From assembly GCA_945860955.1 (NCBI GenBank), contig CAMATH010000027.1, positions 1-64,000 on the forward strand: a stretch of DNA of 64,000 nt, read 5' to 3'. The stretch comes from Planctomicrobium piriforme (GTDB taxonomy: Bacteria > Planctomycetota > Planctomycetia > Planctomycetales > Planctomycetaceae). Made by a program: the position numbers and the translations under genes. Numbering within the stretch: position 1 is the first letter of the stretch; the number at the start of each line of letters is the position of its first letter. Under the pieces are notes generated by a model. It saw nothing but the letters and a program-made list of their open reading frames with translations, was not told where the DNA came from and ran no database searches. Of the stretch, positions 28,565 through 45,552 are shown piece by piece.

Positions 28565-29731
28565 ATGGCGAGTGACAGTTCCGGGGGAGCCCCAAAAAAG
28601 CTCAGTACCCAGGAAATCCTGGCGAAAGCGCGGGCGGAGGCGGCGAAAAAGGCCGCAGGCGCAGAGGCTGCGCCAGCACCTGCGGCTGAACAGGCCGCCG
28701 CTCCCGAGCCGGTGGCGAAACCCGCCCCCGTCACAGAACCGGCGAAGGCCCCAGTGGCCGCTGGAGCAAAGCCCAAGTCGACTGCCGAGATTCTGGCTGC
28801 CGCTCGGGCCGCGAAGGCTGGCGCGGCGGCTCCTGCAGCCACTGCACCTGCACCGACCGCACCCAAACCGGCCCCGAAGCCGGCAGCCGCTGGCGGATCA
28901 AAGTCAACCGCCGACATTCTCGCCGCCGCGCGAGCCAACAAGGCGGGCGGGGCGGCACCACCAGCCGCCGCGACACCGGCCGCAGACAAGCCTGCCGCCA
29001 AACCAGCGGCGGCCAAGCCAGTCGTTGCCGCAGCAGCCGCTGTATCGGATGTTTCGGTCGAAGAAATGCTGGCTGCGGTCCGTCCCGGTGGCGCGGTTGC
29101 CAAAACGGTCGCCGCCGAACAGCCCGTGGCTGCCCCCAAGGTCGCTCCCCCGATGCCACCGCGTCCCGTGGTCGCGCCTAAGCCGGCCGCCAAAAAGGGC
29201 GCAGCCGAGACTCGGCGGGGATTCATGGTCGTGTTGGCGATGCTCGCATCGCCGTTCTTTATCGCGTGGGCGGCGGTCACCGCGACGGCTGGCGTCTGGA
29301 CTCTCGGCCTCGCTCGGTTCATGCTCCCCAACGTCCTGACCGAACCCCCCAGCAAGTTCAAGATTGGTCCTCCGACCGATTACGATCTGGGTACCGTCGC
29401 GACCAAATGGGTCGCCCAGTTCGGGATCTGGATCGTTCACACCGACCAGTACAAAAGCAAAAATCTGATCTACGCCCTCGCCTCGGTCTGTACCCACCTG
29501 GGTTGCACCCCGAGCTGGCTCGAGGGAGAACGCAAATTCAAGTGCCCGTGCCACGGTTCAGGTTTCTACATCACCGGGGTCAATTTTGAAGGCCCCGCAC
29601 CGCGACCCCTCGAACGTGTCGGCATTCGGCTCTCTGAAGATGGAATGCTCGAAGTCGACAAGAGCGTGAAATTCCAGGAAGAAATGGGGCAGTGGAACGA
29701 CGGCGCCTCCTTCTTCGAAGTCACCGCCTGA
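28565..29731 (+). CDS. qcrA: Rieske [2Fe-2S] protein with alanine-rich repeat extension
   Basis: 388 residues. The C-terminal half is a quinol-oxidising Rieske protein: CTHLGC (C309, H311, C314) and CPCHG (C327, C329, H330) give the cluster ligands and disulfide. A twin-arginine-like TRRGFMVVL motif and membrane helix lie at residues ~218-255. Ahead of these is a ~215-residue alanine/proline-rich extension, predicted cytoplasmic, with four copies of an STxEILAxARA motif starting at residues ~14, 72, 114 and 164. Ordinary Rieske proteins lack it. It is first gene of the respiratory cluster. ATG 28565 has GAGG upstream. Confidence 0.93.
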   Translation: MASDSSGGAPKKLSTQEILAKARAEAAKKAAGAEAAPAPAAEQAAAPEPVAKPAPVTEPAKAPVAAGAKPKSTAEILAAARAAKAGAAAPAATAPAPTAPKPAPKPAAAGGSKSTADILAAARANKAGGAAPPAAATPAADKPAAKPAAAKPVVAAAAAVSDVSVEEMLAAVRPGGAVAKTVAAEQPVAAPKVAPPMPPRPVVAPKPAAKKGAAETRRGFMVVLAMLASPFFIAWAAVTATAGVWTLGLARFMLPNVLTEPPSKFKIGPPTDYDLGTVATKWVAQFGIWIVHTDQYKSKNLIYALASVCTHLGCTPSWLEGERKFKCPCHGSGFYITGVNFEGPAPRPLERVGIRLSEDGMLEVDKSVKFQEEMGQWNDGASFFEVTA

Positions 29732-29820
29732 CCACACCCGCCACCACGAGGCGTTCTCCTCGTGCTGACAGTCACAGGCTTCCTTTCCGTCATCCCGTCC
29801 CGTACCGATAAGCCGCACCG

Positions 29821-30594
29821 ATGTCCATCGGCGAATACATCAGAGACTCGCAGATCTGGAAGAGTATCTTCCGGCATCCGGCCCCCTACGACCGCCGCAA
29901 CCGCGTGGTGGTCATGCTCACCAACTTCTTCCTGCACCTGCATCCGGTGTCAGTCAAGAAGCAAGGGATCGCGCTCTCCTACACCTGGTGCATGGGGGGA
30001 ATCACATTCTTCCTGTTCCTGGTGGAAGCGATCACCGGTGTGCTGTTGATGTTCTACTACCGGCCGACGCTGGAGTGGGCCTACAACGACATTCTCGCCC
30101 TCCGCGACGTCACCACCCTGGGGATCATGCGTGAAATCCATCGGTGGGGTGCCCACGCGATGGTGATCACCGTCTGGCTCCACATGTACCGCGTTTTTCT
30201 CACCGGCAGCTACAAGCCGCCGCGTGAGTTCAACTGGGTGGTGGGGGTGTTGCTGCTGGTGCTGACGTTGCTGCTGTCGTTCACCGGCTATCTTCTGCCG
30301 TGGGACCAGTTGGCGATCTGGGCGATCACGGTCGGGTCGAATATGGCTCGCGCGACCCCGTTCCTGGGGCATGAAGGCCCCGGGGCGCAGATTTTGAATC
30401 TGGGGGGTTACGACCTGATCACCAACGCGAGTGATGCCCGGTTCATTCTGCTGGGTGGTCGTTTTGTGGGTGAGGCGACCCTCAACCGCTTCTACATTCT
30501 GCATTGTGTGGCCATCCCGTTGGTGGTCTCGTTGTTGATCGCGATTCACTTCTGGCGAGTCCGCAAAGATGGCGGCATCAGTCAGCCTCTGTAA
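29821..30594 (+). CDS. qcrB: Cytochrome b6-type subunit of the Rieske/cytochrome b complex
   Basis: 257 residues, four predicted helices of the cytochrome b N-terminal domain. Helix-B histidines are spaced H-x13-H (EIHRWGAH ... LHMYRV), helix-D histidines H-x14-H (LHCVAI ... AIHFW); the x14 spacing is a b6 rather than bc1 trait. Cys57 in [10 protein letters not shown] aligns with the cysteine that covalently binds haem ci in b6f and Bacillus complexes. The protein binds the two b haems across the membrane. The next gene supplies the subunit-IV part, so b is split as in b6f. It starts 89 bases after the Rieske stop. Confidence 0.93.
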
Positions 30595-30624
30595 GCCGAC
30601 CCTCCAGCCTGGTTTTCCTCGAAC

Positions 30625-31959
30625 ATGAATCCGCATCCTGACCTGACGTCACAAGTCATCCGCAGCCTGGGCTGGCTGTATCTGGCGTTGTGCGCGATGA
30701 ACCTCGTTTGGACCTTCCGACTCGGAAAGGCGAAGGCGAGTGTTGCCGCGCTGGCAGTCTGGTCGTCGTATTGCACCGCCTTGGCCTTGCTCGCCATGGT
30801 GCATCTGACCAAATTCGCCGAGCCTCAGAACTTCCCGTTCTTCATGCCCCTCTCGATCAAGACTCAGATCGACGGGCTGGCGAATCCGGTGATCTTTTTC
30901 GCCGTCTCGACGCTGCTCTTTATTGCGATGATTGTCCTCCGCGAATGGTGGACAAAACCGACGATCGCCTGGCTCATTCTGAACGCCGCCATTTTGTTCA
31001 TGGCACTCAGTATGACCGACTACGACTTCCGGCAGATTGTCGGCAAACCCGACAATGTGCCGATCGTGGCGATGCTGTTCATCGTCGGCTTCTTCACTTG
31101 GCTGTTTTTCAGTCGGGCGGTGGAGAATGATCGGCGGATCGCGCTGGGCAAACCGACGGTTGAAAAGGAAGGGGACGAGAAAGTCCTCGTCTGGCCGGAT
31201 CTGGTCTATTCGGAAATGATCTGCATGATCGCCCTGACGGCGATTCTGGTGATCTGGGGCGTTGTCTTGCAGGCTCCGCTGGAAGACCCGGCGTCGTCCG
31301 TGAAGACTCCGAATCCCTCCAAGGCGCCGTGGTACTTCCTTGGTTTGCAGGAGATGCTGGTGTATTACGACCCCTGGATGGCGGGGGTGGTGTTGCCGAG
31401 CGTGATTCTGGTCGGCCTGATGGCGTTGCCGTACATCGATTTCAACAAGAATGGCAACGGTTACTACACGTTCAACCAGCGCAAGTTCTCGATCATCACG
31501 TTCCTGTTTGGCTTCATTCCGCTGTGGATTGGATTGATCATACTGGGGACGTTTCTGCGGGGACCGAACTGGAACTTCTTCGGCATCTACGAGTATTGGG
31601 ACGTCCACAAGCTCGAAGTGTTGAACAACGTCAATCTGTCCGAGTACTTCTGGATTCGTGGCCTCGACCAGCCGCTTCCCGCCGCCGGTGCCGACGCGTC
31701 GGCCCTTGTCAAAACTCTGGCGATCCTGAAGCGGGAGTGGGTCGGTTTGGCCGCTGTGCTGGCCTACCTGTTGTTGCTCCCCCCGTTGATGGCGGGGACG
31801 ATTTTCCAGAAGTTCTTCGTGAAGATGGGTTTCGTCCGGTACATGGTGCTGGCGAACCTGATCCTGTTCATGGCGGCTTTGCCGATCAAGATGGTGCTGC
31901 GGTGGGCCTTCAATCTGAAGTACATCGTCGCCATCCCCGAGTGGTTCTTCAACATCTGA
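30625..31959 (+). CDS. Enlarged cytochrome b C-terminal (subunit IV-like) protein
   Basis: 444 residues, about ten predicted membrane helices. The middle holds the subunit-IV signature region: KAPWYFLGLQEMLVYYDPWMAG aligned with the Qo-site area, then GVVLPSVILVGLMALPYID. The glutamate of the PEWY motif is replaced (APWY), as in several delta/epsilon-type complexes. Unlike b6f subunit IV (~160 residues), it carries an extra ~200-residue N-terminal set of helices (residues 1-165) and a C-terminal pair of helices (residues ~370-430). It is spaced 30 bases after the b6-type gene and 10 bases before the multihaem gene. Confidence 0.85.
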   Translation: MNPHPDLTSQVIRSLGWLYLALCAMNLVWTFRLGKAKASVAALAVWSSYCTALALLAMVHLTKFAEPQNFPFFMPLSIKTQIDGLANPVIFFAVSTLLFIAMIVLREWWTKPTIAWLILNAAILFMALSMTDYDFRQIVGKPDNVPIVAMLFIVGFFTWLFFSRAVENDRRIALGKPTVEKEGDEKVLVWPDLVYSEMICMIALTAILVIWGVVLQAPLEDPASSVKTPNPSKAPWYFLGLQEMLVYYDPWMAGVVLPSVILVGLMALPYIDFNKNGNGYYTFNQRKFSIITFLFGFIPLWIGLIILGTFLRGPNWNFFGIYEYWDVHKLEVLNNVNLSEYFWIRGLDQPLPAAGADASALVKTLAILKREWVGLAAVLAYLLLLPPLMAGTIFQKFFVKMGFVRYMVLANLILFMAALPIKMVLRWAFNLKYIVAIPEWFFNI

Positions 31960-31969
31960 CCGCGTAAAC

Positions 31970-34900
31970 ATGCCTGCCACAGAAAACGTCTGGCGCAGCC
32001 TCCCGGGAATGCACCGGGTCTTTGCCGTGAGTTCGTTGGCTCTCTTCGGAGCCACGCTGCTCATGTTCCGCGCCGACTACGCCGACGAATGGCGCAAGGT
32101 GCAGTCCGTCAATTTCAAACTGCAAACGCAGTTATTGGACGCTGACCTCGCGAGTTTGACGGACGCGCAATTCGAAGAGCAGTTGAAAACACTGCAGGCG
32201 AACGTCGAGGGAGCGCTGAAACTCGTCGAGAGCCGTCAGGGCGAGTCGGAAAAAACCGGGGTCACTGTCAAGAAACTCGACGGTGAATTTCAACGGCAGA
32301 CACAGCAGGTGCGATTCAAGCGCGCCGAACGTGACGTCGCCCGAGCCAACTACGATCTCGCGATTCGCGACCAGCTCGACGCTACCCGTCGACTTGAACT
32401 GCGTGAGAAATTCAACTCCGCCCAGGCGCTGGTTGACGACCTGGAGTCCAAGCTCCAGATTCTCGAAGGGGATTTCGCGACCGCACTGGCCGGAAAGGGA
32501 ACCATCACCAAGGAACTCGACGCCGCCAACGCGGAGTTGAAAAAACACCGCTTCGACCTCGATCGACTCAACACCGCCAAAGACAAGATCTCTCCCTCGG
32601 GAGCGATGGCGTTCAAACGCTGGTTGATGGAGTTGCCGGTCATTGAGGGGTTCAATGGGCACCTCAAAATCAGCCAGATCTGGCTGCCGAAATTGCAAAT
32701 CAACTACGGCGGCATGTCGAACGTCGCCCGGTTCGATCGCTGCACCACGTGCCACATGAACATCGACCGGGTCGGCGCGGGGAACGTCCCCTCCTTCCCG
32801 CATGACCCCAAGGGCATTTCGCCGGATAACGCCGACGACTACCTGTCGGGCAAAAAGAAACTGGTCCGTGAGGATGGATCCAAGGTGGGTTATGCTCAGC
32901 CGTATTCCACCCACCCCAATCCAGACCTCTATCTGACATCGGCCAGCCCGCACCCGCTTCAGAAGATGGGTTGTACCGCGTGCCACAATGGCTGTGGTTC
33001 GGGGACCAGTTTCCAGAACGCCTCGCACAGTCCCAACGACCCGGCGAAGCAGGATGAGTGGACCAAAAAGTACGGCTACTTCCTGAACCACCACTGGGAA
33101 TACCCGATGTTCCCAAAACGAATCGCCGAGGCGGCTTGCTTGCAGTGCCACCACAACGTGGTCGAATTGGGAGTGAATCCTCAATACGGTGCATCGGCTC
33201 CCAAGCTCGTCAAAGGGTTTGACCTGATCGCCGAATATGGCTGCTTCGGCTGCCATGAGATCAACGGCTACAACGCGGGCAAGGCGATTGGCCCCGACCT
33301 GCGGCTCGAACCCCAGACTCAAGAGGAAGCGGACCGCATCGCGGGCGACCCAAATGCCCGTGCCGGGAAAATGCGTAAAGTCGGACCGGGACTGAAGAAC
33401 TTCGCCGGCAAGGCGTCGCGTGGCTGGGCCGAGCAGTGGGTCGCGAACCCCCGCGAGTTCCGACCGGCGACCCGCATGCCCCAGTTCTTTAACCTGACGA
33501 ATCTGAAGGATGGCCACGCCCAGGCGTTGCAGCCGGTGGAAATCGCCGGTGTCGTCGAATACCTGTTCAGCAAGTCCGAGAACATCGCGCTCGATGAATG
33601 GGCCGCCGACTACACCCCCAACGCCGAACGCGGAAAGACGCTCTTCGCGCAGCGGGGCTGCGTCAACTGTCACAGTCACGAGGAATTTCCCGGCGCGACG
33701 TCAACCTTCGGTCCCGATTTGACCACGGTTCACAAAAAGATCGCGTCGACCAAATGGTTGTACACCTGGATTCGAGAACCCAAACGGCACAGCCCCCGGA
33801 CGCGAATGCCTAACCTCTACCTGGAGCCGGAAACGGTTCAAGGGGTGACCATCGATCCAGCGGCGGACATCGCCGCGTGGCTCGCGTCGAAGGGAGCCGA
33901 GAACTATCCCGAGATGACTCTTCCGGTCATCCTGGGAGCGGAACTTGATACCGACTACACTGCGGGAACCGCGAAACGTCTGGGACTCGCCGAGAATCGG
34001 GGCGTGCGAGTGAAGACAGTTTTGCCCTACGGGCCAGCGGCCCGCGCGACGGCCGTCACGAAATTCTCGAATTTGATTTCGCAGAACGGCAAAGACTTGG
34101 TCGTCGACAAGCCAGCGTTGCAGCTTGATGACGTGATTCTCGCGTGGGGCGGAGCGAACGTGAACAGCCCGGCGGAGATCGAACAACGCCTGGCAGCCGC
34201 CAAGTCGGGCGAGGTCGTCGAACTCACGATCTGGCGCGACCGTGGCGAGCGTAAAGTGGCCGTCACTCTCGACCGCGCCATCGCCGCCCTGACCCGCATG
34301 AACCTCGCCAAAGTTCTGACCGGCGAGATGGTTGAAAAGGTGATGGCCGAGCGGAAGTATCCCGAGGCCGACGCCGAGCGGTTAAAGAGTACGCCGATTA
34401 AGCCTGACGAAATCGAACTGGTTGATGGCGAATTGACTGACACGGTGTTGTTGCGATACCTCGGCCGGCGGACGATCTCCCGCTACGGCTGTTACGGCTG
34501 CCACGACATCGCCGGCTTCGAGAAAGCCCGCCCGATTGGAACCGCCCTGCAAGACTGGGGTCGCAAAGACTCCTCGAAGCTGGCGTTGGAGCACATTGAA
34601 GAATACCTGCACCACCACGGTGAGCCAGACGGGTCGAGTACCTTGAAGCGCGTTGCGAAGGCTGTCGAAGATGGCGTGAATAATCGATTCGCTACACCTG
34701 AAGTGGCGGAAACGGAGTCTTCCGCAGCCTACTTCGTCGACCAGATTCAGCACCACGGCCGGGCCGGATTCCTGTGGCAGAAACTGCGGGATCCCCGCAG
34801 CTATGACTACAAAAAGGTCGAGACCAAGGGTTACGACGAACGCTTGCGAATGCCGAAGTTCCCGTTCAAAGAGGCGGACATCGAGGCGATTGCCACGTTC

Positions 34901-36451
34901 GTCCTCGGCCTGACGGCGGAACCTCCGGCTCCCGAATATGTCTACCGTCCGGAAGGTGACGCCAAGGCGCGAATCGAAGGCGAGAAACTCATCGCCCGGT
35001 TCAACTGCGCCGGCTGTCACATGCTGGAACTGCCCGAGGTGACCTATGCCGCCGGCGCTGGCGACTTCCGATTCGATCTGAACGATGATCAGCGCGGGAA
35101 ACTGGCCGCGGGAGAGGCGTTCGTTGTCACCGAAGCCGAACGCTGGGCGAATGTCAGAGACTTCCTGGAATCTGGCCCGCAGCGAGCTTATGCCCGTGAA
35201 GTCAATGTCGCCGCCCTTCAAACAGTGGACTTGACCGGCCTTGACGTCATCACCAAGGGAATCCGGACCGCGAGTCCGTTCAAGCCCGCCGTTCCCATCG
35301 CAACATCGGTTCTGTTGGGCCTGCACGATCGGCTCAAAGCCGCAGTTCCCGCAGGGGGCGAGGAAGCGTTCTACAAGCGGTTCAATGCGTTCATCGCGAC
35401 GCTGGCGATTGTCGAACCGACTCCGGTTGACCACCCCGAGTCGTTCGACGCCTTAATGAAGAGTAAACCGCCCTTCAATGGCCATGCGGGTGCGGGCGCG
35501 ACGGCAGCCGAAACGCTGGTGAAGTTCCGTGGCTTGGTGAATTCCGTCCCAGATCCTCAAGACGACCCGGCGGACCAGGAGTTTGGTTACGACCTGTGGG
35601 AAACCCTGCAAGTTGGTAACAAGGTCCAGGTTCCAAGTTCCCGGATCACCGTACCTATGTTGAAACGGACGTCGGTCACCGCCGGTCGCGGCGGCGAGTT
35701 CGCCGAATGGCTGACGAATCACTCCATGGCCGCCGACCGTCAGCTTGACCGTTCGAAGGCACGTCAGATGGCACCTCCGCCGCTCTATAAGGAGGGGCTG
35801 AAGGTCCAGACTCCGTGGCTCTTCTCGTTCCTCAAGAATCCCGGCAAGATCCGACACACCACCCTGTTGCGGATGCCCCAGTTCACTCTCAGCGACGAAG
35901 AGGCTCAGACGTTGGCGAACTACTTCGCCGCCGTTGATGGAACCAACTTCCCGTACCAGCCGATCCCCCAAAGGGATCCTGGCTACCTCGCTGAGATGGA
36001 GCAGAAGCACGCCAAGTATCTCGACCAAAGCTGGAATTTGATCACGCTGCCGCCTCCGACGGGGCTGTGTGCCGGCTGCCACTCGGTCGGTGGACGGGAG
36101 TTCGTGGCGGGAGATCCGACCAAGGTTGTTCGTGGTCCGAACTTGGAAGGTGTCTATAATCGATTGCAGCCTGACTGGCTGGAGTTGTGGATCTACAACC
36201 CGAAGTGGGTCACACCCTACACCTCGATGCCACAAAACTTCCCGGCTGGGAAGGAACAGTTCCCTGAATTGTTCAAGGGAGACGGTCGGTTGCAGTCGGT
36301 CGGTGCCCGCGACGCCCTGATGAACTATCTGCGGATGCTGGAGCGAGTTGGAAAGCCGGCTCCGGCCCCAGCGGCTGCGGCTGTGGCGGCTCCCCCTGCG
36401 GACGGAGCGGCGGCCCCGGCAGCGGCTGCTGCCGAGGAAGGAAAGAAGTGA
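31970..36451 (+). CDS. Eight-CXXCH cytochrome c with internal PDZ domain
   Basis: 1493 residues. An N-terminal membrane helix (residues ~13-31) and a long coiled coil (about 40-210) precede eight CXXCH haem sites: residues ~258, 335, 390, 425, 564, 841, 1013 and 1367. Between haems 5 and 6 (residues ~657-767) is a PDZ-like domain (GVRVKTVLPYGPA ... DVILAWGGANV ... GEVVELTIWRD), which commonly recognises peptide tails. The C-terminus is alanine/proline-rich. It sits where c1 or f cytochrome would be expected, directly after subunit IV, so it is likely the haem-c partner of the b complex. No known c1/f protein has this build. Its stop TGA overlaps the next ATG by one base. Confidence 0.88.
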   Translation: MPATENVWRSLPGMHRVFAVSSLALFGATLLMFRADYADEWRKVQSVNFKLQTQLLDADLASLTDAQFEEQLKTLQANVEGALKLVESRQGESEKTGVTVKKLDGEFQRQTQQVRFKRAERDVARANYDLAIRDQLDATRRLELREKFNSAQALVDDLESKLQILEGDFATALAGKGTITKELDAANAELKKHRFDLDRLNTAKDKISPSGAMAFKRWLMELPVIEGFNGHLKISQIWLPKLQINYGGMSNVARFDRCTTCHMNIDRVGAGNVPSFPHDPKGISPDNADDYLSGKKKLVREDGSKVGYAQPYSTHPNPDLYLTSASPHPLQKMGCTACHNGCGSGTSFQNASHSPNDPAKQDEWTKKYGYFLNHHWEYPMFPKRIAEAACLQCHHNVVELGVNPQYGASAPKLVKGFDLIAEYGCFGCHEINGYNAGKAIGPDLRLEPQTQEEADRIAGDPNARAGKMRKVGPGLKNFAGKASRGWAEQWVANPREFRPATRMPQFFNLTNLKDGHAQALQPVEIAGVVEYLFSKSENIALDEWAADYTPNAERGKTLFAQRGCVNCHSHEEFPGATSTFGPDLTTVHKKIASTKWLYTWIREPKRHSPRTRMPNLYLEPETVQGVTIDPAADIAAWLASKGAENYPEMTLPVILGAELDTDYTAGTAKRLGLAENRGVRVKTVLPYGPAARATAVTKFSNLISQNGKDLVVDKPALQLDDVILAWGGANVNSPAEIEQRLAAAKSGEVVELTIWRDRGERKVAVTLDRAIAALTRMNLAKVLTGEMVEKVMAERKYPEADAERLKSTPIKPDEIELVDGELTDTVLLRYLGRRTISRYGCYGCHDIAGFEKARPIGTALQDWGRKDSSKLALEHIEEYLHHHGEPDGSSTLKRVAKAVEDGVNNRFATPEVAETESSAAYFVDQIQHHGRAGFLWQKLRDPRSYDYKKVETKGYDERLRMPKFPFKEADIEAIATFVLGLTAEPPAPEYVYRPEGDAKARIEGEKLIARFNCAGCHMLELPEVTYAAGAGDFRFDLNDDQRGKLAAGEAFVVTEAERWANVRDFLESGPQRAYAREVNVAALQTVDLTGLDVITKGIRTASPFKPAVPIATSVLLGLHDRLKAAVPAGGEEAFYKRFNAFIATLAIVEPTPVDHPESFDALMKSKPPFNGHAGAGATAAETLVKFRGLVNSVPDPQDDPADQEFGYDLWETLQVGNKVQVPSSRITVPMLKRTSVTAGRGGEFAEWLTNHSMAADRQLDRSKARQMAPPPLYKEGLKVQTPWLFSFLKNPGKIRHTTLLRMPQFTLSDEEAQTLANYFAAVDGTNFPYQPIPQRDPGYLAEMEQKHAKYLDQSWNLITLPPPTGLCAGCHSVGGREFVAGDPTKVVRGPNLEGVYNRLQPDWLELWIYNPKWVTPYTSMPQNFPAGKEQFPELFKGDGRLQSVGARDALMNYLRMLERVGKPAPAPAAAAVAAPPADGAAAPAAAAAEEGKK

Positions 36452-37380
36452 TGAACATGCTGAGCATGAAGAGTTGGCGCTGGGGAGGATTGCTGGCGGT
36501 CTCGCTGCTGTGCGGCTGCCCCGAGCAGCACACCGTGCAGGTCACGATGAAGAAGGGGGCCACGTCGGCCGCCGCCCCGGACGAATCGACCGAGGCGGCA
36601 CCCGTCGGCTACGGAAATCTGCATGGGGTTGTGACATTTGACGGTGATCCCAAGGCACCCAAGAAAGTGGTGGCCAAGGGGGACGCGTCGGTGAAAGACT
36701 CGGCCGTTTGTGCGGCGGAAGACGCGTTTGATGAGACGTTTCTGGTCAACTCGGCGAACAAAGGGATTCGGTTCGCGGTGGTCTACCTCGACAAGGCTCC
36801 CAAGGCGATCAAGCCCGAGTTGAAGGATCCGCCGACAGCGCCGGTTTTTTTCGACCAGAAGATGTGCCGATTCATTCCACACGTCGTCGCGTTCCGGATC
36901 GGTCAGCCGTTCAAGATTCTGTCGGACGACTCCGTCCCTCACAACACCCATACGAACCCCAATCGAAACGACGCGTTCAACCAGACGGTTCCGCCGAATG
37001 AACGGGTTGGTGTCGACTGCAAATACAAAAAGCCAGAGACGGCGCCGATTTCGGTCGTGTGTGACTTCCACGGTTGGATGAAGGCCTACCATTTCCCGGT
37101 GGACCACCCGTATTTCGCGGTCACTGACGAAAATGGCAAGTTCCGCATCGATGGGTTGCCGGCGGGTCCGCACACTTTCAATGTCTGGCATGAGTCGGCG
37201 TCCGGCGGAATGCTTGAGCGCAAGTTGACGATTGAGATCACGCCCGATAACGACACCGAGAAGAACTTCACCTATGGAGCCGCGAAGTTCGCGGCGAATT
37301 CGTCTCCCTCCCGGGGCGTCCATTTCGAACGTCTGCTGGAAGGTGGCGAGATCCATGTGACTCGTAAGGAGAGCAAGTGA
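36451..37380 (+). CDS. Cupredoxin-like lipoprotein (tandem paralogue 1)
   Basis: 309 residues. Signal ends in a lipobox (LLAVSLLCGC), so it is lipid-anchored. The domain keeps a set of likely copper ligands: VPHNTHTN (His), VVCDFHGWM (Cys, His, Met) and a later His. PHNTH and CDFHGWM resemble blue-copper sites. A carboxypeptidase-regulatory-like beta sandwich follows (GKFRIDGLPAGPHTFNVWHE). It is probably an electron carrier between the b complex and the oxidase, but copper binding is inferred. ATG 36451 is one base into the previous stop, and AAGGAAAG precedes it. The next gene is its paralogue. Confidence 0.85.
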   Translation: MNMLSMKSWRWGGLLAVSLLCGCPEQHTVQVTMKKGATSAAAPDESTEAAPVGYGNLHGVVTFDGDPKAPKKVVAKGDASVKDSAVCAAEDAFDETFLVNSANKGIRFAVVYLDKAPKAIKPELKDPPTAPVFFDQKMCRFIPHVVAFRIGQPFKILSDDSVPHNTHTNPNRNDAFNQTVPPNERVGVDCKYKKPETAPISVVCDFHGWMKAYHFPVDHPYFAVTDENGKFRIDGLPAGPHTFNVWHESASGGMLERKLTIEITPDNDTEKNFTYGAAKFAANSSPSRGVHFERLLEGGEIHVTRKESK

Positions 37381-38303
37381 TGACTCTGAATTCAGCGAAT
37401 CGTGGATGGCGGATCGCCGCCTGGGCCAGCGGCTACACCCTGGCCATCGCCGGCGGTGTCGCCTGGCTGGTTGCTCCGGTTCAGTCCGCCAAGGCGGACC
37501 GGGGTATTGATATCGTTCAGACGGCTGTCGCGGTCGACGCGGTGCATCCGGTCGTCGCTGCGTCGGCGGTCAATTTCGCCGAGGGGACGACCTTCAAGGG
37601 GACTGTCGTCTATACCGACGAGTTCAAGACGTTGGCTCCGCTTGTCAAGAAGGGCCAGGCGGATGTGAAAGACCCGGCGGTTTGCGCAGCGGCTGATGTC
37701 CCGAACGAAGAGATGGTTGTCAACGCCGACAACAAAGGTGTCGCCGACGTCTTCATTTACCTGAGCAAGGCCCCCGCCGGATACAAGGTGGCAAAACCCG
37801 AAGGGGATGTGGTTTTCGACCAAAAGGGTTGCCAGTTCCTCCCGCACTCGCTGTGTGTACAGATCGGACAAACGGTCACCGTGCTGTCCGACGATCCGAT
37901 CCCCCACAACACGCACACCAATCCGATCCGCAACACCGGTTTCAATCAGACAATCGCTCCCAACGACCGGACCGGTGTGGCGCTGAAGTACACCAAGGCG
38001 GAAAAGACTCCGATTGAGGTCAAGTGCGACTTCCACACCTGGATGAAGGCGTACCACCTGATTCTTGACCATCCATTCATGGCCGTCACGGACGCCGATG
38101 GCAAATTCGAAATCAAGGATTTGCCCCCCGGAAAGCACGAGTTCATGGTCTGGCACTCGAAGAAGGGTTTCCTCGATCGCAAGTATGTGGTCGACGCCAA
38201 GGCGGGAGCCGCCACAGAAGTCACGATTAAGTACGGTGCCAAGAACTTCATGGCGTTTGACGGCCCCCGACCGAAGTCGGTGGTTGTCTCGCTGAGCAAG
38301 TAG
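37380..38303 (+). CDS. Cupredoxin-like secreted protein (tandem paralogue 2)
   Basis: 307 residues, clearly paralogous to the previous gene product: shared IPHNTHTNPIRN, GFNQT, KYTKAEKTPI, VKCDFHTWMKAYH, ADGKFEIKDLPPGKH and a YGAKNF end. The N-terminus is a signal or anchor (residues ~10-36) rather than a lipobox. The likely copper-ligand histidines, cysteine and methionine are retained (CDFHTWM). ATG 37380 overlaps the stop of gene 1 by one base (TGATG). A tandem duplicate of this type within a respiratory operon suggests two carriers with different partners. A terminator follows at 38316. Confidence 0.85.
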   Translation: MTLNSANRGWRIAAWASGYTLAIAGGVAWLVAPVQSAKADRGIDIVQTAVAVDAVHPVVAASAVNFAEGTTFKGTVVYTDEFKTLAPLVKKGQADVKDPAVCAAADVPNEEMVVNADNKGVADVFIYLSKAPAGYKVAKPEGDVVFDQKGCQFLPHSLCVQIGQTVTVLSDDPIPHNTHTNPIRNTGFNQTIAPNDRTGVALKYTKAEKTPIEVKCDFHTWMKAYHLILDHPFMAVTDADGKFEIKDLPPGKHEFMVWHSKKGFLDRKYVVDAKAGAATEVTIKYGAKNFMAFDGPRPKSVVVSLSK

Positions 38304-38315
38304 GTCTTGAAGCGA

Positions 38316-38350
38316 CTCCCGGCCGCAGTCGGCGGCCGGGAGGATTTTTT
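38316..38350 (+). terminator. Terminator or attenuator inside the respiratory cluster
   Basis: Perfect 11-bp stem CTCCCGGCCGC / GCGGCCGGGAG around the loop AGTCG, followed by GATTTTTT. It lies 13 bases after the second cupredoxin stop and before the dihaem cytochrome gene, so the b-complex part may be transcribed at a different level from the oxidase part. Confidence 0.85.
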
Positions 38351-38383
38351 CCTGCGATTGAACACACCCGAAAGGGTCATGAC

Positions 38384-39619
38384 GTGCGGTTCTCCAGTCT
38401 GTCAATCATCTGTCTCGGTGGAATGTCGCTGGCCCTCGCGGGCTGTGGACAGCCTCCCGAACCTCTGTTCGCTCCGAGCGCCAAGGCGACGGTGCTGGTT
38501 CCTGCCGCGCAGAGTCTCGTTTCCGAGTCTCTGGTCGAGAACTTTGGGACGCCGAACAAACTGGTCGCTTGGCAGCAATTCCCCATCAACTACGGTTCCG
38601 CGGAACCCACGGCTTCGGATGCGGGACGTCACGACGAAGGGTGGCGACTGCGCGAAGGACGCAATCTGTACATGGTCCACTGCCTCCACTGTCACGGCGT
38701 CGCCGGGGACGGTGCCGGCTCCACCTCCAGGTTCCTGAATCCTCGTCCCCGCGATTACCGCCAGGGGGTCTTTAAGTTCAAGTCGACTGCGGGCGGCATG
38801 AAGCCCTCGACCGCCGATTTGCACCGGACTCTCGTGGAAGGGATACCCGGAACCTACATGCCCTCGTTCGTCTTGTTGGGTCAAGAGCAGATTGGGTTGC
38901 TCGCGGATTACGTGAAGTGGTTGAGTATCCGTGGCGAATTCGAGGAGAAACTGGCGGGCGGGATGGGCAAAGCCGGAGCGACCAGCGAGGAGTTGCGTAA
39001 GTCGTACAAGGACAAGAGGGAGTCGGATAAGTCAATCACCTACGAAGCGGTTGAGAACGAGATTCTCGATGACATTCGGAAGGAGCTTCCGGAGACATTG
39101 ACCGAGAGGGCTCAGGATCTGACCGATGATTGGCTGGCCGGAGAGAATCCAGAGAACGCCACCTTCCCAAAGGCGAAGCGGGTTCTGCCGGATGCTGCGT
39201 CGATCGCTCGTGGACGGGAACTGTTCCTGAGCAAAGACGTGAAATGCAGCGACTGTCACGGTCCAACCGGACGTGGTGACGGCCCGATGACCGAGCAGTT
39301 CATCAAGATTACCGATTCGGACCGCAGTTACGACACACCAGGATTCCGGGACTTTTGGGGACAGCCCATCGTTCCTCGAAATCTGACGCGCGGTGTCTAT
39401 CGGTTCGGTCGCCGTCCCATTGATCTGTACCGCAAGGTGAAAAACGGAATCCACGGAACCCCCATGCCTGCGATCAGCAACCGGGTGACAGAAGAGCAGA
39501 TTTGGGACGTCGTGAACTTTGTCATGAGCCTTCCGTTTGGTGGCAAAGAGTCGGCGTCGCCGGGAGAGGCTGACAGGGATGATGGGGAGGCCAAGGTGGC
39601 GGAAGCCGCTGGAAGCTGA
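38384..39619 (+). CDS. Dihaem c-type cytochrome lipoprotein
   Basis: 411 residues. GTG start with AAAGGG upstream; signal ends in LALAGCGQ (lipobox). Two class I-like cytochrome c domains: CLHCHGVAGDG (around residue 102) and CSDCHGPTGRGDG (around residue 287), each followed by methionine-containing distal segments (TYMPSFV; GTPMPAISNRV). A helical segment joins them. It is anchored on the outer face of the cytoplasmic membrane, placed for CuA of the oxidase encoded next. The stop-to-start distance to the COX II gene is 105 bases. Confidence 0.9.
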   Translation: MRFSSLSIICLGGMSLALAGCGQPPEPLFAPSAKATVLVPAAQSLVSESLVENFGTPNKLVAWQQFPINYGSAEPTASDAGRHDEGWRLREGRNLYMVHCLHCHGVAGDGAGSTSRFLNPRPRDYRQGVFKFKSTAGGMKPSTADLHRTLVEGIPGTYMPSFVLLGQEQIGLLADYVKWLSIRGEFEEKLAGGMGKAGATSEELRKSYKDKRESDKSITYEAVENEILDDIRKELPETLTERAQDLTDDWLAGENPENATFPKAKRVLPDAASIARGRELFLSKDVKCSDCHGPTGRGDGPMTEQFIKITDSDRSYDTPGFRDFWGQPIVPRNLTRGVYRFGRRPIDLYRKVKNGIHGTPMPAISNRVTEEQIWDVVNFVMSLPFGGKESASPGEADRDDGEAKVAEAAGS

Positions 39620-39724
39620 CAACATCGTTGGAATCTGCCAATGCCATTCGGGCATTTTGGCCGGATCAACCCCTGAATCGCGTCATTCCAGACAGTTGCG
39701 TCATCCCCTCGAAGGGTTGAGATT

Positions 39725-40519
39725 GTGAATCGTTTCTGGTGTCTGTTCTTCGTCGCGTCGGCCGTTCTGGCCGTCGTGGTATTCTCCATCGGTCCCGCGT
39801 GTGGCTGGTGGTTCCCTGGTGTCGCCGCCTCTCCGCTAGGTCAACAGATCGATGATCTGTTTTATCTGATCTTGGCGATCACCGGTGTGACCTTCATCGG
39901 TGTGCATGCGGTGCTGGGTTACATCCTGTGGAAATTCACGGGCAAAGACGGGAAGCGGGCCGACTTTCAGCACGGCAGCCACACTCTGGAAGTCGTCTGG
40001 AGCATTGTGCCCGCTGGGGTTCTGCTCTTCATCGCCCTGTACCAGATGGATGTCTGGGCCGCGTTTCGGATGAAGTCCCGGTTTGATCAAGAGGCTCTGG
40101 CCAATCCGATCGCGGAAGTGACCGCCCGACAGTTCGAATGGCGAATCCGCTATCCCGCCCCAGGCAAGGTGTTGCAGGACACGCCTCAGCCCGACGATTT
40201 GTACACCGTGAACGATCTGCACGCGCCGGCCGGCAAGCCTGTGGTGATCAAGCTCCGCAGCGAAGATGTGCTGCATTCGTTCTTCCTGCCTCACTTGCGG
40301 GTCAAGCAGGACGCCGTACCGGGGTTGGTGATTCCGGTTTGGTTCGAAGCGAATGAGCCGAAAGCGTATGATCTTGTCTGTGCCGAGCTGTGCGGCTGGG
40401 GACACTACAAAATGCGTGGCCAGTTGACCGCGCAACCCCAGGCCGATTTCGACGCCTACATGCAGAAGCTGAAAGAAACCCAATTCGACGACGGCTTCAA
40501 AGAAGCCGCCGGCGAGTAG
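39725..40519 (+). CDS. coxB: Cytochrome c oxidase subunit II
   Basis: 264 residues: two N-terminal membrane helices (residues ~5-25 and ~40-67, the second a COX2 TM) and a cupredoxin CuA domain. CuA ligands are His184 (VLHSFFLPHL), Cys219, Cys223, His227 and Met230 in CAELCGWGHYKM, with Glu between the cysteines. ARQFEWRIRYP is the aromatic electron-entry strand. It has no fused haem-c domain, unlike caa3-type subunit II; the separate dihaem cytochrome upstream may supply that role. Start GTG 39725. Confidence 0.95.
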   Translation: MNRFWCLFFVASAVLAVVVFSIGPACGWWFPGVAASPLGQQIDDLFYLILAITGVTFIGVHAVLGYILWKFTGKDGKRADFQHGSHTLEVVWSIVPAGVLLFIALYQMDVWAAFRMKSRFDQEALANPIAEVTARQFEWRIRYPAPGKVLQDTPQPDDLYTVNDLHAPAGKPVVIKLRSEDVLHSFFLPHLRVKQDAVPGLVIPVWFEANEPKAYDLVCAELCGWGHYKMRGQLTAQPQADFDAYMQKLKETQFDDGFKEAAGE

Positions 40520-40625
40520 CGTCCCTCGGGGTGCCCCCCGCCAGCGACGCTGGTGCTTTGAATTGACTACGTGAAGCGTCTGGCCGACGATTGTCCGACG
40601 CGTTCCAACCGACTGAGGATGAGTT

Positions 40626-42461
40626 GTGAGCACACTGAACCCGACCGCTGGAACCCTCGCCGGGCATGGTCATGGCGATGGCCACTCCCATGGCGCGCAT
40701 CACAATCCCGGTTTCATCAGCAAGTACATCTTCTCGACCGATCATAAGGTGATCGGGATCCAGTTTCTGATCACCACGCTGCTGATGCTGTTTGTCGGCG
40801 GGGGATTGGCGCTGGGAGTGCGGTGGCAGCTCGCGTTTCCGTGGCGGGAGCTGCCGATTTTCGGCCGACTGCTGTTCGGATCGCAGGGGGCCGGAATTTC
40901 CCCCGAGTTCTACACGATGATGTTCACGATGCACGCCACCGTGATGATCTTCCTCGTGATCATTCCGATTCTCGCCGGCGCGTTCGGGAACTTTCTGATC
41001 CCGCTCCAGATCGGTGCCGACGATATGGCGTTCCCGGTACTCAACATGTTGAGCTACTGGTTCATGTGGCCGGCGATCTTCCTGTTCGGGGCCAGTTTCT
41101 TTGTGGAAGGGGGCGCGGCCGCCGGCGGCTGGACTTCGTATCCTCCCCTCTCCGGCATTCAGCAGGCGGCTCCCGCCTCGGGCATGGGACAAACGCTGTG
41201 GCTGCTGGCTGTCACGTGCGTCGGTGTCTCCTCGATGATGGGGTCGGTCAACTACATGACCACCATCATCAACATGCGGGCTCCCGGTTTGACGTTGTTC
41301 CGACTCCCCATGACCATTTGGGGGATGTTCATCACCGCGATTCTGCAGGCGTTCGCTCTCCCCGTGTTGACGGCGGCTGGCTTCATGCTGGTGTTTGACC
41401 GCCTGCTGGGAACCACGTTCTTCGTCCCGGGCGGCTTGGTCGTCAACAACGCGGCTCCCACTGTGGGGGGTGGACAGGCCCTGCTCTGGCAGCACCTGTT
41501 CTGGTTCTATTCGCACCCCGCCGTTTACATCATGCTGCTCCCCGCGATGGGCATGGTGTCCGACATTCTGGCCTGCTTCAGTCGGAAACCATTGTTCGGA
41601 TACCGCCCCATGGTTTACTCCATGGCGGCGATTGCCGGCTTGGGCTTCATCGTTTGGGGACACCACATGTTCACCAGTGGTATGAACCCGGCGCTCGGGA
41701 TGACGTTCATGGTCTCGACGATGATGATCGCACTGCCATCGGCGGTGAAGACGTTCAACTGGTTGGGGACGATGTGGGGGGGTAACATCCAGTTCACCGT
41801 CCCGATGATCAATGCGATCGCCTTCGTCTCGATGTTTGTGGTCGGGGGCTTGTCGGGGATCTGGATGGCTTCGGTTCCGACCGACATCTACTTCCACGAT
41901 ACCTACTACATCGTCGCCCACTTCCACTACGTGCTGTTCGGGGCGACGTTGTTTGGGGTGTTTGGATCGATCCAGTTCTGGTTCCCCAAGATGTTCGGCC
42001 GGATGATGAGCGAACGGTTGGGCAAACTGCACTTCATCCTGACATTCATCGGATTCAATGGCACGTTCTTTCCGATGCACCTGTTGGGGATCGCCGGCTT
42101 CCCCCGGCGGTTGGCTGACCCGTATCAGTACCCGGTGTTCGAACACTTGCGTCCCTTGAATCAGGGGATGACCTACTTCGCGATTCTGATGGGATTCGCC
42201 CAGTTCATCCTGCTGTTCAACTTCTTCTACAGTATGTTCAAGGGGAAGAAGGCGGGCCGGAATCCGTGGAATGCCAACGGACTCGAATGGACTGCTCCCT
42301 CGCCTCCAGGACATGGTAATTTCGAATCGGTACCGGTCGTCTATCGGGGTCCGTACGAATACGCTTCGCCCCTGGTGGAAGCCGACTACCTGATGCAGAC
42401 CACGTTCGTCGCTCACGAAGACCGCCACGTCGATCCCGATCAGATCGAACACCACGCCTGA
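40626..42461 (+). CDS. coxA: Cytochrome c oxidase subunit I (A2-type)
   Basis: 611 residues, 12 predicted helices; catalytic subunit reducing oxygen and pumping protons. Low-spin haem and binuclear-site histidines lie in TMHATVMIFL, WFYSHPAVYIMLLPAMG, WGHHMFTSG and HFHYVLFG. The sequence YSHPAVY (not GHPEVY) replaces the E-channel glutamate with Tyr-Ser, marking a type A2 oxidase. The N-terminus (residues ~13-29) is histidine-rich, GHGHGDGHSHGAHH, which is unusual for this subunit. Start GTG 40626 with GAGGATGAG upstream; ctaA starts three bases after the stop. Confidence 0.96.
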   Translation: MSTLNPTAGTLAGHGHGDGHSHGAHHNPGFISKYIFSTDHKVIGIQFLITTLLMLFVGGGLALGVRWQLAFPWRELPIFGRLLFGSQGAGISPEFYTMMFTMHATVMIFLVIIPILAGAFGNFLIPLQIGADDMAFPVLNMLSYWFMWPAIFLFGASFFVEGGAAAGGWTSYPPLSGIQQAAPASGMGQTLWLLAVTCVGVSSMMGSVNYMTTIINMRAPGLTLFRLPMTIWGMFITAILQAFALPVLTAAGFMLVFDRLLGTTFFVPGGLVVNNAAPTVGGGQALLWQHLFWFYSHPAVYIMLLPAMGMVSDILACFSRKPLFGYRPMVYSMAAIAGLGFIVWGHHMFTSGMNPALGMTFMVSTMMIALPSAVKTFNWLGTMWGGNIQFTVPMINAIAFVSMFVVGGLSGIWMASVPTDIYFHDTYYIVAHFHYVLFGATLFGVFGSIQFWFPKMFGRMMSERLGKLHFILTFIGFNGTFFPMHLLGIAGFPRRLADPYQYPVFEHLRPLNQGMTYFAILMGFAQFILLFNFFYSMFKGKKAGRNPWNANGLEWTAPSPPGHGNFESVPVVYRGPYEYASPLVEADYLMQTTFVAHEDRHVDPDQIEHHA

Positions 42462-42464
42462 TTC

Positions 42465-43454
42465 ATGTCCAGTACCTCTTCCACAAGCTATCGCGCAGTT
42501 CCGCACGCCGCGGCCGTCATGACGGCTCTGCTGGCGTTGCTGCCGATCGCGCTGGGGGCGCAGACCACGACCAAGGCTGCGGGCATGGCGTTTCCCGACT
42601 GGCCGACGTCGGATGGTCACGGGATGTTGAGCTATCCCTGGTTCGCGTCCACCGGGGCCAAGTTCCTGGAGCATGGACATCGACTGGCAGGCGTGTTGAT
42701 CGGTGTTTCGAGTATTGTGCTGGCGGCGGCATTGTGGTTCGGCGACAGTCGTAGATGGGTTCGCCACCTGGGACTGGTGGTCGTGTTCCTGGTTGTCGTT
42801 CAGGGAATCCTCGGGGGACAGCGGGTGCTGCTGGATGCCCGGGGGTTGGCATTTATCCACGGTTCCACGGCGGCGCTGGTGTTCAGTTACATGTGGGGAA
42901 TCGCGGTTGTGACAAGTCGCGGTTGGTTTACACCAGCGGTGAGTGAAGAATCGAGTTCTCCGTCCCCAACACTGAGCTGGCTGTCGATTTTGACCTATGT
43001 CGCCGTCTACATTCAGTATGTAATGGGCGGACTCGTGCGGCATCAGGGGCAGGCATTGGTCGAGCATCTGATATTCGCCTTCGTCGCCGCCCTGGCGATT
43101 TTGGTCCTGGTGGTGTCGGCTGCGTCGACCGGCCAGAAATGGCTGCTGTTCCCCTCCCTTGCGTCGGGCGTATTGATGCTCGTGCAACTTGTCTTGGGTG
43201 CGGGAACCTGGGTGACCAAGTACGGCTTCGGTGACGCGGGAAATCCGGTTTACGGATCGACCGAGCAGGTCGCCTTCCGGACCACGCATGTCCTCAACGG
43301 GATGCTGCTGTTCGCATCGGTTTCCGTTCTGGTGTTTCGCATCCAGCGCCTGCGGTGGCTGGCGACTGCGGCGACCACTCCGGTGAGCGGACCCGTTTCC
43401 GAACATGGGTTTCCACTCGCCGGGGGCATTGCCACGCCGGGAGGTGCCCGATGA
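42465..43454 (+). CDS. ctaA: Haem A synthase (COX15/CtaA family)
   Basis: 329 residues, seven to eight predicted helices. It oxidises haem O to haem A for the oxidase. The histidines of the family are visible: EHGHRLAGVLIG, LAFIHGSTAALVF, GGLVRHQGQAL and FRTTHVLNGMLLF. The N-terminal half keeps FPDWPTSDGHGM, typical of COX15/CtaA. Planctomycete CtaA proteins often deviate from the Bacillus type in the extracytoplasmic cysteine pairs, and no conserved pair is seen here. It lies three bases after coxA, and its stop overlaps the ctaB ATG (ATGA). Confidence 0.9.
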   Translation: MSSTSSTSYRAVPHAAAVMTALLALLPIALGAQTTTKAAGMAFPDWPTSDGHGMLSYPWFASTGAKFLEHGHRLAGVLIGVSSIVLAAALWFGDSRRWVRHLGLVVVFLVVVQGILGGQRVLLDARGLAFIHGSTAALVFSYMWGIAVVTSRGWFTPAVSEESSSPSPTLSWLSILTYVAVYIQYVMGGLVRHQGQALVEHLIFAFVAALAILVLVVSAASTGQKWLLFPSLASGVLMLVQLVLGAGTWVTKYGFGDAGNPVYGSTEQVAFRTTHVLNGMLLFASVSVLVFRIQRLRWLATAATTPVSGPVSEHGFPLAGGIATPGGAR

Positions 43455-44434
43455 AGAGTGTGTCAACTACAACGGCGGCTTCGTTCACAGCGCCGGCTCA
43501 GATCGCTTTAGGTGAAGTGTCTCTGGGTGAGGTGGCGCTCTCCGAAATTCCCGTGACGACGCGCATGACGGCCCGACTGGCGGATTACGCGACATTGGGG
43601 AAGCCCCGGATCGCGGTGATGTCGCTGGTCGTTGTCGCTGCGGGCTATGCGCTGGGACGGTCTGAAGTCGGCGTGGCCGCCCCGTTAATTCATGCGTTGA
43701 TTGGAATCGCACTGGTGGCGATTTCTTCGAGCGCATTGAATCAGGTGTTTGAGCGGGTGACCGACGGACTGATGAAGCGGACCGTCAACCGTCCGCTGCC
43801 CGCCGGCCGGCTCTCCTCGGGCGAGGCGCTGACTTTCGGCGCAGTGTGTGGGGTCGCGGGTGTCGGTTACCTGCTGGCATTTGTCAATCAGCCGACCGCT
43901 GTCTGGTCGGGCATTACACTGGTTTTGTACGCGTTCGTTTACACGCCACTCAAGCGGGTGCTTCCCTTGGCGACCGCGATTGGTGCGATCCCGGGGGCGA
44001 TGCCTCCGGTGCTTGGCTGGCTGGCGGCCGGCCGATCGATCGATGTGGGAGCATTCGCGCTGTTTGGAATTCTGTTCCTGTGGCAATTCCCGCATTTCCT
44101 GGCGATCGCCTGGATTTACCGTGAAGATTACGCCCGGGCCGGGTTGAAGATGTTGCCCACCCGCACAGAGATTCCACGCGTCACGGGAACCCTGGCGTTC
44201 GCGTATTCTGTCGCGCTGCTTCCGATCAGCCTGTTTCCGTCGTTTTGTGGATTGGCTGGCAGGGCCTACCTGGTGGGAGCCTTGCTGTTGAGTCTGTGGT
44301 ACCTGGCGGCGTCGTTGCGATTCGCTTTGGTGGAAGAACGCGATTCCGCCCGAATGGTGTTGCGGACGTCTCTGGTGTACCTGCCCGCGCTGTTGGCTCT
44401 CTTGGTGTGGGATCATTACCGGCTGCTCGGCTGA
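43451..44434 (+). CDS. ctaB: Haem O synthase (protohaem IX farnesyltransferase)
   Basis: 327 residues, UbiA superfamily, about nine helices. It adds a farnesyl tail to haem B. The first aspartate-rich loop is ALNQVFERVTDGLMKRTVNRPLPAG, with N and D placements changed relative to the usual NDxxDxxxD; the second loop keeps YREDYARAGLKMLP. WQFPHFLAIAWIY is typical of CtaB. The N-terminal ~45 residues are a hydrophilic extension. ATG 43451 overlaps the ctaA stop by four bases. Loop variants should be checked before activity is assumed, but context strongly supports the call. Confidence 0.93.
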   Translation: MKSVSTTTAASFTAPAQIALGEVSLGEVALSEIPVTTRMTARLADYATLGKPRIAVMSLVVVAAGYALGRSEVGVAAPLIHALIGIALVAISSSALNQVFERVTDGLMKRTVNRPLPAGRLSSGEALTFGAVCGVAGVGYLLAFVNQPTAVWSGITLVLYAFVYTPLKRVLPLATAIGAIPGAMPPVLGWLAAGRSIDVGAFALFGILFLWQFPHFLAIAWIYREDYARAGLKMLPTRTEIPRVTGTLAFAYSVALLPISLFPSFCGLAGRAYLVGALLLSLWYLAASLRFALVEERDSARMVLRTSLVYLPALLALLVWDHYRLLG

Positions 44435-44480
44435 GAGTCGCCGGCCCCTTCGACTGATTTCCTGACACGTTGATTCGATC

Positions 44481-45542: not shown

Positions 45543-45552
45543 TACCAGCGCC

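Follow-up and report, generated by a model that had tools for sequence, protein, structure and literature searches.

The 64,000-nucleotide stretch of Planctomicrobium piriforme DNA analysed here (contig CAMATH010000027.1, positions 1 to 64,000 of the forward strand; hereafter the window) codes for a large c-type cytochrome with eight haem-binding motifs and an internal PDZ domain, called P0001. It is encoded by a single open reading frame (ORF) at 31970-36451 on the forward strand, with 1493 codons and an ATG start, open throughout. Ten bases separate this ORF from that of a subunit-IV-like membrane protein upstream, and its last four bases are shared with the start of the next ORF. CXXCH motifs are found at residues 258, 335, 390, 425, 564, 841, 1013 and 1367; in 2000 shuffled versions of P0001, their mean number was 0.0045 and the maximum was one. 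The best hydrophobic 19-mer of the chain begins at residue 17, near the N-terminus, and residues 45-205 contain no proline and 34% charged residues. Coiled-coil-type Pfam models matched the latter stretch weakly in the relatives L048, L049 and L051. An original prediction, made from the sequence alone, had described eight haems, an N-terminal anchor, a coiled coil and a PDZ domain between haems 5 and 6 in a protein encoded next to a cytochrome b complex. ORF, motif, composition and profile data bear out this layout, and genes for Rieske, cytochrome b and subunit-IV-like proteins do lie upstream. The features of P0001 are as follows:

31970-36451, forward strand: octahaem c-type cytochrome with internal PDZ domain, 1493 residues (ORF, eight CXXCH motifs, homologues)
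32012-32074, forward strand: predicted single N-terminal membrane anchor, about residues 15-35 (best hydrophobic 19-mer)
32102-32584, forward strand: long helical or coiled-coil-like stretch, about residues 45-205 (composition; weak Pfam matches in relatives)
32741-32755, forward strand: haem 1, CTTCH, residue 258 (CXXCH motif)
32972-32986, forward strand: haem 2, CTACH, residue 335 (CXXCH motif)
33137-33151, forward strand: haem 3, CLQCH, residue 390 (CXXCH motif)
33242-33256, forward strand: haem 4, CFGCH, residue 425; probable Met ligand M503 (from the motif and ligand prediction)
33659-33673, forward strand: haem 5, CVNCH, residue 564; probable Met ligand M613 (likewise)
33917-34279, forward strand: PDZ domain of predicted HtrA/DegP PDZ1 type, residues 650-770, within the linker that joins the domains of haems 5 and 6 (profiles, structure model)
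34490-34504, forward strand: haem 6, CYGCH, residue 841; probable Met ligand M961 (motif, ligand prediction)
35006-35020, forward strand: haem 7, CAGCH, residue 1013; probable Met ligand M1302 (likewise)
36068-36082, forward strand: haem 8, CAGCH, residue 1367; probable Met ligand M1420 (likewise)

The same architecture recurs in the relative L044, which is 74% identical across the match, and in L007, which is 96% identical as far as this cut copy extends (seven haems). Thus, it is not an assembly artefact.

Several lines of comparison converge on the identity of the PDZ domain. In a scan of the whole protein, the Pfam PDZ_2 model (PF13180) matched residues 679-767 with an E-value of 3.2e-5 and 24.6 bits, under its 27-bit cut-off, and in a family search of the organism's own genome the same model gave P0001 29.6 bits, over the cut-off. 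Relatives also exceeded the cut-off, and the best PDZ_2 match among them, in L050 (between haems 5 and 6), reached 6.7e-16. The NCBIfam Do-protease model matched the segment at 3.3e-8, far under the cut-off of that full-length model, as expected for a single domain. A phmmer search with the PDZ segment found solved DegQ at 6.2e-6, and a profile built from the PDZs of 17 relatives found it at 2.2e-14. In an AlphaFold model of residues 552-850, pLDDT exceeds 90 over most of the PDZ, and one loop, around residues 691-710, is of low confidence; the haem-5 domain is poorly modelled. HtrA-family chains occur throughout the 50 Foldseek matches listed for this model. A second structure alignment gave MucD as the best match, with a Z score of 15.1 and an rmsd of 1.2 over 96 residues for P0001 residues 650-770. 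On the strength of these profiles and models, residues 650-770 are a genuine PDZ fold, nearest to PDZ1 of HtrA/DegP. The original prediction had named a profile check for this domain, which it passed with PDZ_2, the Do-protease model, the DegQ profile and the MucD fold; the bounds proposed then, residues 657-767, are correct to within a few residues.

The P0001 domain thus resembles PDZ1 of HtrA, DegP and MucD in fold and sequence, but it is inserted in a cytochrome and no protease domain accompanies it. We know of no characterised respiratory cytochrome with such an interaction domain. In HtrA PDZs, a hydrophobic-Gly-hydrophobic loop holds the carboxylate of the ligand. As read from the alignment, such a loop is kept at the start of the domain in 13 of 13 PDZ-containing sequences. 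The P0001 domain is predicted to bind peptides.

At an E-value threshold of 0.001, 35 of 40 relatives gave a match to P0001, but many of the weaker matches are other cytochromes. Of 294 genomes from the phylum, 103 had a match at 1e-15, and of 160 from the family, 123 had one at 1e-60; the 37 family genomes without a match at the latter threshold include one of the same genus (G001). A single peptide-pattern scan of genome contigs, which hardly touched lineages outside Planctomycetota, returned eight loci, all titled planctomycetes. Judging by sequence, the octahaem core is widespread in planctomycetes, though not universal.

We assembled a homologue set of 108 octahaem sequences from the phylum, two identical pairs included. 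Exactly eight CXXCH motifs are present in 102 of them; the other six (L007, L038, L042, L107, L116 and L122) are cut by contig ends, and L007 also by unread bases. The shortest whole chains have about 950 residues (L129 and L130). Three putative distal histidines, H315, H328 and H353, are invariant in the 102 full sequences. M503 is likewise kept in 102/102, M961 and M1420 each in 100/102, M613 in 98/102 (with a gap in the other four) and M1302 in 96/102. Because of these conserved His and Met residues, haems 1-3 are probably bis-His-ligated, and haems 4-8 probably belong to five class-I-type domains with Met ligands. The Pfam Cytochrom_C model matched all sequences in each of the three sets into which the homologues were divided (28/28, 40/40 and 40/40). 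No cytochrome f or c1 model is among the listed Pfam (E up to 0.1) or NCBIfam (E up to 0.01) matches of P0001, and the model of actinobacterial dihaem QcrC matched it weakly, at 1.7e-6, far under its cut-off.

A PDZ domain is present in 27 of the 108 sequences, and none has two (0/108). It lies between haems 5 and 6 in 19 of them, between haems 6 and 7 in six (L097, L177, L179, L182, L198 and L199) and between haems 1 and 2 in two (L041 and L063). This tally was made with a family profile, plus Pfam for L041 and L063; the eight segments from which the profile was made necessarily match it, and seven of them were checked singly with Pfam. A Pfam PDZ_2 check of all sequences at E 0.01, confined to the haem region in the two sets of 40, gave 10/28, 6/40 and 11/40, the same numbers as the assignments. 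Single-sequence Pfam searches supported the site between haems 6 and 7 at 1.2e-12 (L198), 6.7e-10 (L177) and 5.8e-7 (L097), and that between haems 1 and 2 at 1.1e-9 (L063, with PDZ_6) and 1.9e-4 (L041, below the cut-off). The start of L042, which resembles L041, was considered as a cut PDZ; Pfam gave no PDZ there and it was not counted.

A nearest-PDZ comparison covering L097, L063 and L041 against the PDZs of one genome placed the L097 domain nearest to the PDZs found between haems 5 and 6 in other sequences, and that of L063 nearest to general PDZs of the window's genome. In one scan with the PDZ profile, the sequences with the domain between haems 5 and 6 scored at least 77.6 bits and L097 scored 48.8 bits. 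Common descent of the domains at these two sites is likely from the sequences but not proved, because the profile also picks up ordinary PDZ proteins of the organism's own genome, the best of which, at 61.9 bits, outscores L097.

We next considered the history of the domain on trees of five haem-centred blocks from which the PDZ was left out. They were computed quickly under LG+G4 with SH-aLRT support only, so that the counts of gains and losses are rough; the main tree holds 72 of the 108 sequences and has flagged long branches, that of L063 above all. On it, the PDZ between haems 5 and 6 needs six changes, at least four of which are forced by well-supported branches. The sequences with a PDZ between haems 6 and 7 form one clade, within a clade of 22 that also holds 12 with the PDZ between haems 5 and 6 and four without it. 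L041 and L063 are paired in this tree but not in another. The nearest well-supported clade of the window's protein (n=8) contains two sequences with the PDZ and six without, the latter including the two identical pairs. By these sequence trees, the PDZ is a domain gained, lost or moved several times, in an order that the tree does not set. It is also under purifying selection, as estimated from coding sequences: its dN/dS is 0.07, 0.10, 0.29 and 0.30 in four pairs, the fifth pair being saturated.

Such a patchy presence, with at least four forced changes at one site, would be expected if the PDZ were a tolerated passenger with a structural role or none, sitting in linkers that accept folded inserts and binding no peptide. 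The same linkers do accept other inserts. Segments resembling PPIC-type prolyl isomerases lie in the linker between haems 6 and 7 of L049 (10123-10917, E 0.0012) and L166 (6107-6901, E 0.034), both below the cut-off and to be taken as leads only. L189 (3132-3941) has another insert there without a Pfam name, and L167 and L195 have inserts other than a PDZ between haems 5 and 6; the long inserts of L117, L167, L189 and L195 gave no PDZ match. The PDZ also changes faster than the haem domains in five of five pairs; in some of these, still faster change is seen in the coil and in the loop that follows haem 7. A mere passenger fits less well with a groove-loop motif kept in 13/13 sequences and a dN/dS well below 1. 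Nor would it be expected that neighbouring clades keep the PDZ at one of two sites, with two sequences from outside the window's family carrying it between haems 1 and 2. We consider this explanation unlikely, but worth keeping in view.

The affinity to HtrA/DegP PDZ1 and the PPIC-like segments of L049 and L166 bring to mind a different role, in assembly or quality control. The PDZ would then be a handle that recruits a folding factor or an HtrA-type protease, or that senses unfolded subunit tails, during haem attachment. An HtrA-like trypsin plus PDZ protease is indeed encoded in the window, at 62210-63472. However, its gene, some 26 kb away, says little, as the organism's genome has 33 PDZ_2 matches, many of them in other proteins; in addition, the PPIC matches are under the Pfam cut-off and P0001 has no protease domain attached. 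An assembly role is improbable on this evidence.

The gene neighbourhood of P0001 indicates the system in which it may work:

28565-29731, forward strand: Rieske iron-sulfur protein with a long Ala/Pro-rich N-terminal extension (Pfam Rieske 7e-8; NCBIfam b6f PetC 6.9e-17, below cut-off)
29821-30594, forward strand: b6-like cytochrome b (Pfam Cytochrome_B 2.7e-40; NCBIfam ExtP 6.7e-78 and cytochrome b6 1.5e-53, both below cut-off)
30625-31959, forward strand: subunit-IV-like membrane protein with an extra N-terminal region (Pfam Cytochrom_B_C 1.7e-5; NCBIfam ExtQ 4.8e-15 and b6f subunit IV 1.3e-5, both below cut-off)
36448-37380, forward strand: X1, probable cupredoxin plus transthyretin-like domain, lipoprotein by eye from a Cys after the hydrophobic start (Pfam, alignment, structure)
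37377-38303, forward strand: X2, paralogue of X1 (Pfam, alignment)
38384-39619, forward strand: dihaem c-type cytochrome (Pfam Cytochrom_C 3.2e-19; two CXXCH motifs)
39725-46002, forward strand: oxidase genes COX2, COX1, CtaA, CtaB, COX3 and COX4 (Pfam), taken to be of aa3 type because CtaA and CtaB are present

For the cytochrome b parts (29821-31959), NCBIfam gives ExtP and ExtQ of selenite/tellurite reduction operons as the best names, both matches being sub-cut-off. The COX3 ORF (44481-45542) appears to have a long hydrophilic stretch between two Pfam-matched parts. Elsewhere in the window, SCO1/SenC and DUF420 are joined in one ORF (46357-47721), and an arylsulfotransferase-like (ASST) ORF lies on the reverse strand (1634-3046). 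Contigs C53, C46, C26 and C142 of the same genome encode three more relatives of cytochrome b and another haem-copper oxidase; thus, the Rieske/cytochrome b-oxidase chain is not the only one of this organism.

We determined how far this gene order is conserved, counting only the loci of relatives with enough flanking sequence. In the window's family, the octahaem gene has the Rieske gene and both cytochrome b genes upstream of it at 54 of 54 loci, a cupredoxin gene and a dihaem cytochrome gene lie downstream at 30 of 30 each, and oxidase genes at eight of eight. Outside this family, cytochrome b genes are found at 29/32 loci (28 with Rieske), cupredoxin genes at 20/31, dihaem cytochrome genes at 6/31 and oxidase genes at 3/8. 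The linkage between octahaem cytochrome and oxidase is therefore mainly a trait of the window's family.

In an alignment of 28 X sequences, C205 and H208 never vary, and at least 90% of the sequences have H165 and M211. The nearest solved sequence is amicyanin (E 9.2e-5), and the fold matches the cupredoxin 4hcg (Z 10.6) and plastocyanin 7pcy (Z 9.8, rmsd 1.8 over 85 residues); the nearest fold of the other domain is the transthyretin-like domain of carboxypeptidase D. By sequence pattern and model, X1 and X2 are probably type-1 copper proteins to which a transthyretin-like domain is joined. With amicyanin and plastocyanin they share the fold and the conserved His-Cys-His-Met pattern, which would bind copper; in contrast to these, they carry the transthyretin-like fusion and are encoded beside an octahaem gene. 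A third X copy is found on contig C16 of the organism's genome. The octahaem frame of L041 (9986-15424) terminates in a domain with the X cupredoxin pattern by eye, although Pfam gave no match on this piece; this possible natural fusion suggests that X belongs to the octahaem complex.

The closest parallel comes from the anammox bacterium Kuenenia stuttgartiensis. A 2025 study (PMC12954380) describes two Rieske/cytochrome b complexes with b6-like cytochrome b and subunit-IV-like proteins, in which a hexa- or octahaem cytochrome replaces cytochrome f and an NAD(P) oxidoreductase is associated; the larger cytochrome, Kustd1485, was modelled with long helices wrapping the complex. The window shares with the Kustd1480-1485 complex, as described there, a b6-like cytochrome b, a subunit-IV-like protein and a large multihaem c subunit. 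In contrast, it has cupredoxins and an oxidase, and no NAD(P) oxidoreductase was found among the ORFs scanned (28565-46002); we therefore liken only the octahaem subunit to the anammox type. Homology between P0001 and Kustd1485 is an inference for which L129 and L130 served as stand-ins. In the similar neighbourhood of L129, cytochrome b is followed by an NAD(P) oxidoreductase-like ORF, then by subunit IV and the eight-haem protein homologous to P0001. By analogy, the octahaem core seems to be a planctomycete subunit type standing where cytochrome f stands, as has been reported from the anammox bacteria. The main text of PMC12954380 nowhere uses the term PDZ, and PMC4837345 uses the term PDZ domain once. 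We found no report of a PDZ in such an octahaem subunit of a Rieske/cytochrome b complex in the open-access literature, which does not prove its absence from print.

PDZ and CXXCH haems are also joined in the magnetosome proteins MamP and MamE, membrane-anchored like P0001 (PMC3971196). The combination in P0001 could by this precedent form a metal-oxidising site like that of MamP. However, the haem units of these proteins are tiny magnetochromes with a magnetosome function and without a Rieske/cytochrome b complex, whereas the haem parts of P0001 match class I cytochrome c models and its gene stands in a Rieske/cytochrome b operon. We regard a MamP-like site as very improbable. The magnetochrome (MCR) model was tried on P0001 and gave no match at E up to 0.1; it gave one sub-threshold match, at E 0.067, in L041.

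The best explanation overall, whose truth we hold to be about evenly balanced, is that of an octahaem subunit of a b6f-like complex with the PDZ as an exchangeable docking module. P0001 would be the octahaem c subunit of a planctomycete b6f-like Rieske/cytochrome b complex, doing the job of cytochrome f or c1 and held in the membrane by one N-terminal helix. From the gene context and the candidate ligands, we infer that electrons would pass from the Rieske protein to haems 1-3 (probably bis-His), then to the haem domains 4-8 (probably His/Met, class-I-type), and onward to the cupredoxins, the dihaem cytochrome and the aa3-type oxidase of the same operon. The PDZ, set into a linker between haem domains, contributes no haem and would most probably serve as the exchangeable docking module for an electron-transfer or assembly partner outside the cytoplasmic membrane.

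The original prediction had gone further and proposed that the PDZ could dock the C-terminal tail of a partner, such as the alanine-rich tails encoded nearby, and so hold a supercomplex together. These alanine-rich tails end in residues unlike the usual PDZ ligands, and the long Ala/Pro-rich stretch of the Rieske protein is N-terminal, not a tail. In the window, the octahaem protein ends in K, the two cupredoxins in K and K, the dihaem cytochrome in S, COX2 in E and COX1 in A. We compared the last residues of nine classes of operon proteins between 13 loci with the PDZ and 13 without, not every locus having every gene. The last residue is hydrophobic in 1/13 octahaem proteins at loci with the PDZ versus 0/13 at those without, and correspondingly in 0/11 versus 0/10 dihaem cytochromes, 0/10 versus 0/10 COX2, 3/12 versus 5/11 Rieske proteins and 0/20 versus 3/17 cupredoxins; both cytochrome b parts have hydrophobic tails alike with and without the PDZ. 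The strongest difference points the other way (uncorrected p 0.05 for X2 and 0.088 for X1 and X2 pooled). The proposal of docked alanine-rich tails is not borne out, as the operon C-termini are alike in genomes with and without the PDZ.

These comparisons belong to several observations that weigh against docking and the electron path just outlined. In no tail class was a hydrophobic last residue gained with the PDZ across these 26 loci, and no ligand of the domain emerged. Cupredoxin copy number does not follow the PDZ either: two copies occur in 6/22 sequences with the domain and 7/34 without (p 0.75), and the five independent pairs are too few for significance. No PDZ was found in 81 of the 108 relatives, counting L042, which is cut where one might lie. 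Where it is present, its conservation falls short of that of the haem-1-4, haem-5 and haem-6-7 segments in each of the five pairs. Finally, the dihaem cytochrome and oxidase genes mostly do not adjoin the octahaem gene outside the window's family, so that the electron path need not hold there. Docking in general nevertheless appears to be the most likely use of the PDZ, because the groove loop is kept, the domain is under selection and it is kept at alternative sites.

A bolder version of the docking idea is that of a plug-in site. An HtrA-like PDZ would have been acquired, lost and shifted between three loops, and the tethered partners would differ from lineage to lineage, be they cupredoxin, oxidase, envelope or assembly proteins. 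We put this forward tentatively and think it rather doubtful; if true, it would represent modular wiring of complex III-type enzymes to their electron acceptors.

Multihaem replacements of cytochrome f have been described for anammox bacteria, and the present sample indicates that a core with eight haems, whose candidate ligands are conserved, occurs widely in the phylum. Roughly one sequence in four carries an interaction domain in this core, and in the window's family the gene stands beside those of an aa3-type oxidase and of blue-copper-type proteins. Should the PDZ tether a partner, these planctomycetes would offer a testable case of a respiratory chain wired through a swappable docking module.

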